DNA of 64,000 nucleotides from Cytobacillus massiliigabonensis (GTDB lineage Bacteria > Bacillota > Bacilli > Bacillales > Cytobacillaceae): NCBI RefSeq assembly GCF_900199725.1, contig NZ_LT904904.1:1257377-1321376 (forward strand), written 5' to 3'. A program made the position numbers and the translations under genes. The notes under the pieces are model-generated. The model did not search any database, was not told where the DNA came from, and saw only the letters and a program-made list of their open reading frames with translations. Within the stretch, counting starts at the first letter, position 1. Each line of letters opens with the position of its first letter. Shown piece by piece: positions 16,221-42,469 of the stretch.

Positions 16221-16346
16221 GTCCAGCTGCGGCGGCTAGGGGCTCGAGGTCATAAGCCAACTCGTCAAGAAGGCTAAAGAACAGCCTTCTCGCCGATTCG
16301 TCTTATGCTTGTCGCCCCTGATCGTGCCGCCTCCGCATTTCATGAT
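16221..16346 (+). repeat. Dispersed palindromic element, class A, tandem copy 1
   Basis: Runs from GTCCAGCTGCGGCGGCTAGG to GCCGCCTCCGCATTTC. The inner hairpin is AGAAGGC-TAAAGAACA-GCCTTCT; GGGG pairs with CCCC and GCGGC with GCCGC. It is nearly identical to the next copy. Confidence 0.9.
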
Positions 16347-16472
16347 GTCTAGCTGCGGCGGCTAGGGGCTCGAGGTCATAAGCCAACTCGTCAAGAAGGC
16401 TAAAGAACAGCCTTCTCGCCGATTCGTCTTATGCTTGTCGCCCCTGATCGTGCCGCCTCCGCATTTCGAGAT
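16347..16472 (+). repeat. Dispersed palindromic element, class A, tandem copy 2
   Basis: Begins exactly 126 bases after copy 1 and differs from it by only a few bases, which suggests a recent duplication. Confidence 0.9.
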
Positions 16473-16598
16473 GTCAAGCTGCGGCTCCTAGCCCCTCGAG
16501 GTCATAAGCAAATCTGGCTAGAAGGTTAAAGAACAACCTTCCATCCAGCTAGTCTTATGCTTGTCGGGGCTGAGCAAGGTGCTTCCGCATTTCGAGAT
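16473..16598 (+). repeat. Dispersed palindromic element, class A, tandem copy 3
   Basis: Again offset by 126 bases. The arms are diverged but still paired: inner AGAAGGTT/AACCTTC around the conserved loop, and CCCC...GGGC in place of GGGG...CCCC. Confidence 0.88.
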
Positions 16599-16747
16599 GT
16601 CTAGCTGCAGCGCCTATCGCCTATCAAACTTCAGGTCCCCTCCCTACGATAAGTCGACATCAATTCGCTATCGCTCATTGTGTCTCCTATATCTCAGTCG
16701 AGGACCTTCCAGTTTGTACGGCGATGAACAAGGCGCCTCCGCTTTTC
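16599..16747 (+). repeat. Dispersed palindromic element, class B, fourth in the series
   Basis: Follows copy 3 at the same 126-base offset. Nested arms are GCGCCT/AGGCGC, ATCGCC/GGCGAT, AAACT/AGTTT and AGGTCC/GGACCT. Together these four elements fill almost the whole 639-base gap between mutM and ytaF. Confidence 0.87.
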
Positions 16748-16814
16748 GTGTTAACACTGGATAGGCTTCTTCCATATACTATCTTAGCGATTGTCAGGGA
16801 GGAGTCCTATTCAT

Positions 16815-20067: not shown

Positions 20068-20190
20068 GTCTAGCTGCGGCGGCTACCCCCTCGAGGTCAC
20101 AAGCCAATCCGCCAAGAAGGTTAAAGAACAACCTTCCTGTCGGCTCGTCTTGTGCTTGTCGGGGGTGACCAAGCCGCCTTCGCTTTTCAT
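20068..20190 (+). repeat. Dispersed palindromic element, class A
   Basis: Runs from GTCTAGCTGCGGCGGCTACC to GCCGCCTTCGCTTTTC. The inner hairpin is GAAGGT-TAAAGAACA-ACCTTC, with CCCCC opposite GGGGG. Confidence 0.87.
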
Positions 20191-20192
20191 CA

Positions 20193-20316
20193 GTCTAGCT
20201 GCGGCTCCTAGCCCCTCGAGGTCATAAGATGAGCTGGCTAGAAGGTTAAAGGACAACCTTCCATCCAGCTCATCTTATGCTTGTCGGGGCTGAACAGTCG
20301 CCTTCGCTTTTCATTT
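20193..20316 (+). repeat. Dispersed palindromic element, class A, second of a pair
   Basis: Runs from GTCTAGCTGCGGCTCC to CGCCTTCGCTTTTC. The inner hairpin is GAAGGT-TAAAGGACA-ACCTTC, and the arm GATGAGCTGG pairs with CCAGCTCATC. With the previous copy it fills the gap before nrdR. Confidence 0.87.
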
Positions 20317-20403
20317 TGTCTAGATTATACTGTTGGGGTTTTTCATAAAAAATAGTACAATAAGAGTATCATATATGAACGATTAGGATTCGGAGCTGAT
20401 AGT

Positions 20404-24519: not shown

Positions 24520-24848
24520 GTAATTGTAATGATGAGGACAAGGGCATTCAAAAAACGGTTTATAGAGAGGGAAGGCATGGCTGAAACCTTCCTAACACGA
24601 TTGAAATGCTTACCGCCTTTGAACTTCAACTTTGAATTTTTGATTGAATATAATGCGGATCGTTTCAGCTAGACCTGTTTTTTGACGAAGGGATTCGCCG
24701 CTTATCATTTGTCAAAATAGTATAGGTTGACGGAACAAGCCGTTATCTTGCTACAAGTCATTTATCGTATTTTTCGTTAAATGAGAAGTAGGGTGGAACC
24801 ACGTGTATACAAACTCGTCCCTTTTTTAGGGAGGAGTTTTTTTATTTA
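24520..24848 (+). promoter_or_regulatory. T-box leader of thrS (specifier ACC)
   Basis: A tRNA-Thr-sensing transcription antiterminator. The T-box AGGGTGGAACCACG lies at 24790-24803. The terminator arms are ACTCGTCCCT and AGGGAGGAGT with a T run (24811-24848). In stem I, AAGGGC (24541-24546) pairs with GCCTTT (24615-24620), with the Thr codon ACC at 24612-24614 on the 3' side just before it, and GAGAGGGAAGG/CCTTCC forms the upper part. Uncharged tRNA-Thr is expected to pair with both regions and allow read-through into thrS. The specifier assignment is an inference from the fold; the T-box itself is certain. Confidence 0.93.
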
Positions 24849-33553: not shown

Positions 33554-33620
33554 AGCAAATTTGACAGCTTGCTATAAGAACATGATCATAAAGCTCAAAC
33601 CAAGGTGCTTATGAAAAATT

Positions 33621-34306
33621 GGTAGCCATGAAGCGTTCATGTCGCCCGAAATTAGGAACCCTAGAATAAATAGGGAGCCATGAAACGTTCATGCCGCCCG
33701 AAAAAAGGATCCCAGAATAAATAGGTAGCCATGAAGCGTTCATGCCGCCCGAAAATAGAATCCCCAGAATAAATAGGGAGTCATGAAGCGATCATGCCGC
33801 CCGAAAAAAGGATCCCCAGAATAAATAGGGAGCCATGAAACGTTCATGCCGCCCGAAAAAAGGATCCCAGAATAAATAGGGAGCCATGAAGCGTTCATGC
33901 CGCCCGAAAATAGAATCCCGAGAATAAATAGGGAGTCATGAAGCGATCATGCCACCCGAAAATAGGATCCCCAGAATAAATAGGGAGCCATGAAACGTTC
34001 ATGCCGCCCGAAAAAAGGATCCCAGAATAAATAGGGAGCCATGAAACGTTCATGCCGCCCGAAAATAGGATCCCCAGAATAAATTGGTAGCCATGAAGCG
34101 ATCATGCCGCCCGAAAATAGGAACCCCAGAATAAATAGGGAGCCATGAAGCGATCATGCCGCCCGAAAATAGGATCCCCAGAATAAATAGGGAGCCATGA
34201 AGCGTTCATGCCGCCCGAAATTAGAATCCCCAGAATAAATTGGGAGTCATGAAGCGATCATGCCGCCCGAAATTAGAATCCCCAGTATAAATCGGTAGCC
34301 ATATAT
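33621..34306. repeat. Tandem array of 13 repeats with 51-52 bp period
   Basis: Unit starts (GGGAGCCATG or variant) are at 33621, 33673, 33724, 33776, 33828, 33879, 33931, 33983, 34034, 34086, 34138, 34190 and 34242, with a truncated 14th at 34294. Each unit has the small palindrome CATGAA-(a/g)cg-TTCATG or CATGA-agcga-TCATG, then CCGCCCGAAAA, and a TCCC...GGGA pair that spans the unit boundary. The units contain stop codons and the period is not a multiple of three, so the array is not coding. It fills most of the 1,036-base gap; 33554-33620 and 34307-34589 show nothing else recognisable except AT-rich DNA and the leader of the next gene. Confidence 0.93.
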
Positions 34307-34589
34307 CATTCTTAACTCCCAAAGATCCATTAAATGAACAATCCCAAGATTCATTAAACAAATTTAATAATCATTTGAGCTATTAATAAGCACATTATTT
34401 CTAATAAGAGGTTTTAATTTTTATTTTTCAGAAACTTTGAGTATAATCATTAGCCCGATTTGGTCTTTATGAAAAATTTTTTTAAAAAATATAAGGTAGG
34501 AGGTTACTTGTCCACTCCAATTTTATTTATTGACATAAGTTATAGAGAATCAAAAAAGCAATATCAATATCCAATAAGGAGTGGAATGA

Positions 34590-40921: not shown

Positions 40922-40950
40922 TTGAAAGTATGCAAAGAATATACTATAAT
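40922..40950 (+). promoter_or_regulatory. pheST promoter
   Basis: TTGAAA and TATAAT are exactly 17 bp apart. Confidence 0.75.
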
Positions 40951-40974
40951 AAACAGCAAATTATATTTATAAAA

Positions 40975-41375
40975 CAATGACGGAGAAAAGTAGCTTGCGA
41001 AAGAACTTTTCAGGGAGAGAATGCCTAGACTGAAAGCATTCTTAAGGGATTGCAAAGGAACATTCACCTCCAGAGTTGACATCGGGACCATTGAAAAATC
41101 GGTGAGAGTTAGATAACTGTCTAGCTCCAGCGGCTAGCCCCTCTTGGGTCTAAGCCAAATCTCCCAGAAAGGTAAAGTACACCTTTCCGTACGATTTGTC
41201 TTATGCTTGTCAGGGCTGAAAGAGCCGTTTCCGCATTTCAATGTAAAGATGTACCGGCTTGTCGCCGTTATCGAAATGAAGCGAATACATAAGCTGTTTT
41301 TTTGCTTTTGTGTTAAAAAGGGTGGTACCGCGAATCCAAAACCTCGTCCCTTTATTGGGAGAGGTTTTTTATTTT
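40975..41375 (+). promoter_or_regulatory. T-box leader of pheST (specifier TTC), interrupted by a repeat element
   Basis: A tRNA-Phe-sensing antiterminator. Stem I spans about 40978-41075, with AGGGAGAGAATGC and GCATTCTT as upper arms and TTC at 41063-41065 in the specifier position (GAACATTCACCTCC). The T-box AGGGTGGTACCGCG is at 41319-41332. The terminator ACCTCGTCCC/GGGAGAGGT with T run lies at 41338-41375. Between stem I and the T-box, at 41119-41244, is a complete class A dispersed element, which makes the leader about 125 bases longer than it would otherwise be. Confidence 0.92.
41119..41244 (+). repeat. Dispersed palindromic element, class A, inside the pheS T-box
   Basis: Runs from GTCTAGCTCCAGCGGCTAGC to GCCGTTTCCGCATTTC. 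The inner hairpin is GAAAGG-TAAAGTACA-CCTTTC. The flanks ATCGGTGAGAGTTAGATAAC and TAAAGATGTACCGGCTT look like one continuous T-box segment; CGGT (41100-41103) and ACCG (41253-41256) could pair across the insertion. Confidence 0.87.
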
Positions 41376-41408: not shown

Positions 41409-42443
41409 ATGCAAGAACGTTTAAAGGAATTGCAAACGGAAGCGCTGGAAAGTATTAACCAGGCATCAGATTTAAAAGAACTGAATGATATTCGTGTCTC
41501 TTATTTAGGAAAAAAGGGTCCAATTACGGAAGTCCTTAAAGGAATGGGGAAATTATCTGCTGAAGAGCGGCCAAAAATGGGGGCTCTTGCAAACGAAGTA
41601 AGGGATGCAATCGCAGCCGGTATAGAAGAAAAGCAGAAGCATTTAGAAGAAGCGGCAGTACAGGAGAAGCTTGCGCTTGAGAAAATTGACGTTACACTGC
41701 CAGGCCGTCCGGTTAAAACTGGGAACCATCACCCGTTAACACGCATTATTGAAGAAATTGAAGATTTATTCATTGGAATGGGCTATACGGTAGCTGAAGG
41801 ACCTGAAGTGGAAAAAGATTATTATAATTTTGAAGCACTTAATTTACCAAAGGACCATCCAGCTCGTGATATGCAAGATTCCTTCTATATAACTGAAGAA
41901 ACGCTTCTTCGTACACAAACTTCTCCAGTACAGGCAAGAACGATGGAGAAGCATGATGGAAAAGGTCCTGTGAAAATTATTTGTCCAGGAAAGGTATTCC
42001 GTCGTGATAATGATGATGCCACACATTCCCATCAGTTTATGCAAATTGAAGGTCTTGTTGTTGGTGAAAATATCCGCATGACTGATTTAAAAGGAACGTT
42101 AGAAGTTTTTGCGAAGAAATTATTTGGTGAAGATCGTGAAATTCGTTTGCGTCCTAGCTTCTTCCCATTCACAGAGCCTTCGGTAGAGGTTGATGTGTCA
42201 TGTTTTAAGTGTGGAGGGAAAGGCTGTAACATTTGTAAAAAGACTGGGTGGATTGAAATATTGGGTTCGGGAATGGTTCATCCGAATGTACTTGAAATGT
42301 CAGGTTTTGATTCTAAAAAATACTCAGGCTTTGCATTTGGTATGGGTGTTGAACGAATTGCCATGCTGAAATATGGGGTAGATGATATTCGTCATTTTTA
42401 TACAAATGATGTTCGTTTCTTAAAGCAATTTTCAATTCATGAA
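41409..42443 (+). CDS. pheS: Phenylalanyl-tRNA synthetase alpha subunit
   Basis: A 345-residue class II synthetase catalytic subunit; works as an alpha2-beta2 tetramer with PheT. ATG 41409 follows AAAGGAGGAAG; a longer in-frame reading from 41310 would start inside the T-box. The N-terminal coiled coil covers residues 1-85. Motif 1 region: [19 protein letters not shown]. Motif 2: [21 protein letters not shown]. Motif 3: [18 protein letters not shown] small zinc-like [17 protein letters not shown] insertion lies near residue 260. Confidence 0.96.
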
Positions 42444-42469
42444 TAAGACAAGGTAGAGGAGGAATTTAC

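Follow-up and report, generated by a model that had tools for sequence, protein, structure and literature searches.

The leader of pheS in the window, by which we mean the whole stretch of 64,000 nucleotides analysed, contains a class A element inside its T-box riboswitch. The question raised by this locus is whether a dispersed, self-folding repeat was inserted into a regulatory RNA that tolerates it, as an earlier note on this DNA had proposed, or whether the sequence is an ancient part of the T-box itself. The identity of the host RNA is clear. In a cmscan search the leader matched the T-box model RF00230 completely (model positions 1-219), and reading and folding recovered the Phe specifier, the T-box bulge and the antiterminator/terminator pair that characterize the class. 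As in other T-boxes with Stem II and IIA/B, all core parts are present in order and a Phe specifier precedes pheS; the difference is that the apical loop of Stem II is here filled by a dispersed repeat. In this match the Stem II loop holds 156 inserted nucleotides, and its score of 88.8 bits falls below the RF00230 gathering score of 93, which is why this T-box is absent from a gathering-level scan of the window. The specifier and the T-box with its terminator had been described as intact, and this is the case (Table 1): both TTC and the T-box sequence can be read directly and the terminator hairpin appears in the minimum-energy fold, though a simple terminator scan did not list it.

Table 1. 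Features of the pheS leader and their coordinates in the window.
Feature	Position	Strand	Basis
Promoter-like site of the pheS leader, TTGAAA-17-TATAAT	40922-40950	+	11/12 consensus match
pheS T-box leader (RF00230)	40968-41354	+	88.8 bits, E 4.7e-20
Specifier codon TTC (Phe)	41063-41065	+	direct reading
Stem II 5' arm and S-turn, upper helix CATTGAAA	41078-41096	+	helix partner 41236-41243
5' hairpin arm of the inserted element, GAGTTAGA..TCTAGCTC	41106-41127	+	fold; same arm at other copies
Class A element, repeat core, in the Stem II apical loop	41119-41239	+	at least 47 genomic matches; 35-copy covariation
Stem II 3' arm, TTTCAATG and S-turn GTAAAGATG	41236-41252	+	Rfam alignment, relatives
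Stem IIA/B, ACCGG..CCGTTA	41253-41270	+	Rfam alignment
Stem III	41284-41314	+	Rfam alignment
T-box sequence of the antiterminator, AGGGTGGTACCGCG	41319-41332	+	direct reading; GGGTGGTACCGCG kept in relatives
Terminator hairpin	41338-41371	+	minimum-energy fold
pheS (phenylalanine-tRNA synthetase alpha)	41409-42446	+	

The insert between the two arms of Stem II is 139 nt long (41097-41235). It is seated in the apical loop, closed by CATTGAAA (41089-41096) and TTTCAATG (41236-41243), and together with the closing TTTC it amounts to the class A core plus a 5' extension. The right border of the repeat is 41239 (CGCATTTC), and on the left the insertion reaches approximately 41106, where its own 5' hairpin begins; a hairpin arm of the same kind stands before GTCTAG at other genomic copies. 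The earlier placement of the element at 41119-41244 was correct in that a class A element lies in the leader, but its end was set too far to the right and its left side is wider. The proposal that the element interrupts a linker clamped by CGGT/ACCG had to be abandoned. These bases do form pairs when the fragment is folded by itself, but the Rfam alignment assigns the CGG of ACCGG to the pairing of Stem IIA, relatives do not conserve CGGT, and the insert is seated at the tip of Stem II. The pheS site shows no readable target-site duplication. In relatives with short loops, Stem II consists of GACATCGGGACC with a CATYGA helix, a loop, TCRATG and then GTAAAGATG. Many relatives close the loop with CATTGAAAAG/CTTTTCGATG; there CTTTTC forms the element end and GAAAAG resembles the AAGAAAG start of full-length copies; hence the ends of the element appear to prolong Stem II.

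The element itself is dispersed. A query with 41119-41244 matched at least 47 places in the genome of the window (E<=1e-3); the count is a minimum, as scores were computed for 40 of 102 candidates. Patterns for its 5' and 3' ends occur 147 and 198 times in the genome, respectively (<=2 mismatches), and reversed control patterns of both ends do not occur there. Across the taxonomic family, the 5'-end pattern (<=1 mismatch) is present in 103 of 111 genomes and in 24 of 25 genera, with 0-2 occurrences of the reversed controls per genome. In the 19 full-length loci, 97-295 nt separate the 5' extension from the first 3' end, a span that is too short for an autonomous transposon. Some of these copies (among L280-L298) have a GATAAGAAAG-like start and a CTTTTCTTATC-like end; these candidate terminal inverted repeats read GATAAGAAAG and CTTTTCTTATC at L289 and are less exact at some, not all, of the other full-length copies. 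As a short non-coding element with many dispersed copies, class A has the character of a MITE, and its copy number and the empty sites of other copies point to mobility.

Copies also occur head to tail in the genome, with a period of about 121-126. Two such arrays with a 126-nt period lie in the window, at 16221-16750 and about 20068-20312. The tandem copies at 16221 are separated by 5-nt spacers, ATTTT flanks the array at 20068-20317 on both sides, either of which may be a target-site duplication, and the last unit of one head-to-tail array belongs to a longer class that shares these ends. A separate tandem repeat at 33564-34334 has a period of about 52 nt and at least 11 units.

Covariation strongly supports the predicted fold of the element. 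The alignment comprised 35 of the 44 full copies collected; nine were excluded by hand (four near-duplicates and five truncated, decayed or divergent copies), which may have raised the paired percentage slightly. The consensus fold has 32 pairs, 96.1% of 1113 cells are paired and double changes occur at 18 of the 32 pairs. None of 500 shuffles matched the percentage paired, the number of double changes or the covariation score, and sliding the partner by 1-3 columns reduced pairing to 37-57%. One measure, the number of further pair types, was not above the shuffles, 468 of 500 being as high. In the 35 copies, 157 cells show double changes versus six with single changes (G-U), counts that are inflated by shared descent. 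The small number of G-U steps suggests either that the hairpin is important at the DNA level, in both strands, or that one arm serves as template for the other. Whole helix segments look flipped between class A copies, as though one arm of a DNA hairpin had been copied from the other.

To compare the site among relatives, the pheS leader was read in all 36 genomes of the genus, which we judged to be Cytobacillus from named relatives (Cytobacillus eiseniae and Cytobacillus firmus). The switch itself is nearly constant. The motifs AGTA, GTAAAGATG, CCGTTA and GGGTGGTACCGCG are conserved in 36 of 36 leaders and CATCGGGACCA in 35, the exception being G001; the specifier with its flanks fits a strict pattern in 34, and in G017 and G028, which the pattern misses, TTC can be made out by eye. 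The Stem II loop occurs in three states. Six leaders (G010, G011, G012, G013, G021 and G035) have a short loop of 16-24 nt without element sequence, 14 carry a long insert of 140-217 nt and 16 a shrunken insert of 24-95 nt with element ends. The element profile (E<0.01) covers most of its length in 13 of the 14 long inserts, with partial matches in three further leaders (G016, G017 and G022). Among the shrunken inserts, 14 of 16 have no profile match at this threshold (G017 and G022 do); for these 14, the assignment to the element relies on short matches at the ends and on how they align with full relatives. By our reading of these sequences, 30 of the 36 genomes hold element-derived sequence in this loop. 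The comparison of relatives suggested in the earlier note thus did find the empty site, and with the genomic copies these short loops bear out its central claim that the pheS T-box received, and tolerates, a dispersed element that folds on itself. In G004, which together with G018 is the nearest kin of the window, a shrunken copy is followed by a full copy in one loop. The leaders of G015, G016 and G031 have a third, different repeat nested inside the class A insert, and this repeat is itself dispersed (16 matches in G015, 10 in G031 and 31 in G003).

Related sequence in 30 of 36 genomes could also be expected of an ancient functional extension of Stem II, making for example an extra contact with the tRNA or a protein, from which the dispersed copies spread later. 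Stem II domains are described as long and diverse in the accessible part of PMC7583486. The six loops of 16-24 nt within the genus argue against such an origin, as do the loops outside it. Named pheS loci numbered 80, of which three belong to the genus. Among the remaining 77, a pattern search gives a Stem II loop of <=30 nt in 47 (the pattern over-reads at least 10 of 62 leaders, where it starts too early), and reading by eye gives a short loop in 10 more; five have a longer loop (L021, L017, L065, L057 and L064), and 15 were not parsed. L021 has a full class A copy in pheS Stem II according to the profile, and L017 a shrunken copy by eye. In L028 the loop of Stem III contains what looks by eye like the 3' end of an element, with no profile match. 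In L070 (Bacillus aerolatus), two tandem class A copies lie between the pheS terminator and pheS.

A further argument against an ancient extension comes from exchange. There are two insert types that differ by flipped arms (GCCCC..GGGGC versus GGGGC..GCCCC), and they swap between near-identical leaders. G008 and G025 are 97.5% identical outside the insert versus 70% within it; the corresponding values are 95.9% versus 68% for G006 and G008, 97.0% versus 75% for G009 and G019, and 95.0% versus 75% for the window and G004. Such differing inserts in nearly identical leaders indicate that inserts have been exchanged. The insert of G019 shares 94% identity across 102 nt with one of the dispersed copies in the genome of the window, whereas pheST of these two genomes is 78% identical. 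On a pheST tree of 41 rows, from which a long-branched Robertmurraya outgroup placed inside the genus in an earlier tree was left out, the minimum number of changes is four for empty versus derived loops, 13 for empty, full and shrunken ones, and five for type 1 versus type 2 among the full ones. The ancestral state is not fixed by the tree; clean loss of the insert may explain the six empty loops, and some of the apparent turnover could come from whole leaders passing horizontally between species. We infer that a resident copy attracts others or recombines with them.

The element is not confined to pheS. The window's genome has 25 T-boxes, and by the element profile two of them, pheS and alaS, contain class A copies. 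In alaS the copy interrupts Stem I, with CCATCT on one side and the AGARA T-loop of the elbow-binding motif on the other (motif names after the accessible part of PMC7583486). Profile matches were found in the alaS leaders of five of the 36 genomes (the window's, G001, G003, G018 and G033): the Stem I copy is full in the window's genome and in G001 and decayed in G018, with short loops in others, and the copy of G003, also full, sits in Stem III. Short remnants were seen by eye in alaS of G002, G029 and G030. The pheS and alaS leaders of the window's genome both score under the Rfam gathering threshold, as do two T-boxes without class A; we think that the inserts account for the low scores of the former two.

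The same element in other stems of another T-box, the spread of its 5'-end pattern through the family, the empty and short loops and the swapping of types lead us to reject the ancient extension as highly improbable. The earlier note had held that a homologous domain in all relatives would mark the sequence as an old part of the T-box; homologous sequence does exist in most of the genus, yet it goes with empty loops, type swaps and cases elsewhere. Its description of a natural experiment in tolerance was incomplete: the event is recurrent and not single, given alaS Stems I and III, the two non-genus relatives and a second family of repeats. This second, unrelated dispersed repeat of about 169 nt was observed in the Stem II region of another T-box (L260, G003:C39:82700-83400), and its relatives occur at other sites in the examined stretches of G001, G002, G003 and G018. 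The stretches examined were 20 of the 72 T-boxes in three relatives, mostly longer or weaker ones, in addition to the pheS and alaS leaders; in these 20, the class A profile gave only fragments in L265, downstream of its T-box. The T-box at 24520-24825 of the window has a long Stem II region (63 nt in the model's loop and further inserted bases), in which the element profile found nothing.

Recurrence could alternatively stem from target choice, with the element aiming specifically at hairpin tips or T-box DNA. The Stem II tip is filled in two genera and Stems I and III of alaS are occupied too, the tandem arrays suggest that copies attract copies, and a terminator-like hairpin precedes four of the 19 full-length copies under a strict rule, versus eight of 1102 control windows and one of 19 on the other strand. 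However, two of 25 T-boxes is close to the number expected if some 150-200 copies were spread across non-coding DNA, a rough estimate that assumes a non-coding share of 15%, and enrichment of elements in the T-boxes of this genome was dismissed as being at chance level. Moreover, insertions that break the T-box before an essential gene would be lost, and tolerance alone gives the same pattern. We consider target choice quite unlikely as the cause of the recurrence.

Whether the insert disturbs the leader was approached with partition-function folds in which the real element was compared with dinucleotide shuffles. In pheS the element forms 3.3 pairs with the leader versus a shuffle mean of 33.3, with 15 of 200 shuffles as low; in alaS the values are 3.7 versus 33.8, with none of 100 shuffles as low. 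In seven other pheS leaders, one to four of 60 shuffles were as low. The T-box's own pairs were equalled by 16 of 200 shuffles for the window's pheS, three of 60 for G009, one of 60 for G019 and none of 100 for alaS, and were no better than with many shuffles in G003 (34 of 60), G004 (29), G014 (20), G028 (21) and G031 (16).

A long hairpin could also have been co-opted, pacing co-transcriptional folding or offering a nuclease site and thereby tuning pheS, in which case pruning and exchange would be under selection. The persistence of the insert in most of the genus would fit, and the closing helix is kept in all 38 folded loops with 4.3-9.7 expected pairs, empty loops included. In 10 of 14 cases the shrunken insert folds no worse than 94% of the deletions of equal size made in a full relative; this comparison is weak, as the 14 cases represent few independent events and also differ from the model parent by substitutions. 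The remaining four (G032, G018, G022 and L017) do not stand out from random deletions. On the other hand, deletion inside a palindrome leaves hairpins without any selection, and insert lengths from 24 to 217 nt reveal no preferred form. We judge co-option to be unlikely.

Our preferred reading, to which we assign a probability of roughly 0.83, is that a MITE-like element was inserted at the tolerant tip of Stem II and was followed there by exchange and pruning. A dispersed hairpin has come to occupy the apical loop in the sense orientation, with its ends adjacent and apparently prolonging the Stem II helix, so that the element would fold on itself and hang off the far end of the stem. In this position it would be kept away from the S-turn, IIA/B, Stem III and the antiterminator, and would be tolerated for that reason. 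The accessible part of PMC7583486 gives Stem II regions of about 10 to 200 nt that act through the S-turn near mid-stem, and locates IIA/B in the functional core of that domain. Tolerance presumably reflects that the tip of Stem II does not touch the tRNA. The resident copy would then serve as a landing or recombination site at which family members insert in tandem or replace the resident, exchange proceeding through tandem insertion and recombination, and internal deletions would prune a copy back to a short hairpin. Any effect on antitermination would be small, and insertion and turnover are probably near neutral.

T-boxes and MITE-like repeats are both known kinds, and insertions of repeats into structured RNAs have precedents. 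Curious insertions of unknown structure and function are noted in every T-box domain in PMC7583486, the accessible part of which does not name dispersed repeats as their source. In Rickettsia, palindromic elements lie inside the tmRNA and RNase P RNA genes, according to the portion of PMC2229807 available, and are likewise small repeats tolerated in a structured RNA. Those RNAs are constitutive, whereas pheS involves a switch that must refold and exchange and pruning at one site. Cyanobacterial RNase P RNA reportedly contains STRR repeats (Vioque 1997, cited in PMC2858038), again a repeat family in a structured RNA, with the difference that STRR are short tandem repeats in another RNA. The bcr1-bcr3 repeats of the Bacillus cereus group are intergenic, MITE-like and often within UTRs in the available text of PMC3446304, where the term 'T-box' does not appear; their resemblance to class A is one of description. 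Prokaryotic MITEs are characterized as short, structured elements with terminal inverted repeats and many copies in the accessible sections of PMC10969869, and class A is similar in being short, structured and present in many copies. The same sections go no further than to envisage riboswitches formed by MITEs, and they point to potential T-box motifs in BOX elements. Among the matches listed, which cover the open literature with subscription papers mostly outside, no description of a dispersed repeat inside a T-box was found.

A broader idea, which we regard as rather doubtful, is that the tips of T-box stems, Stem II above all, are cassette sites where self-folding mobile elements arrive, recruit others, swap and are pruned by selection for a continuous helix, with the resulting differences in length tuning co-transcriptional switching. 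If true, many unexplained T-box insertions would be accounted for. RNA-family searches can miss T-boxes that carry such inserts, a warning for surveys of these regulators. At the least, a part of the unexplained insertions in T-boxes is given a source, namely dispersed hairpin repeats. The 36 genomes provide a natural allele series of empty, full, swapped, nested and pruned forms on a nearly constant switch, which allows tolerance, folding insulation and any regulatory cost to be measured directly.
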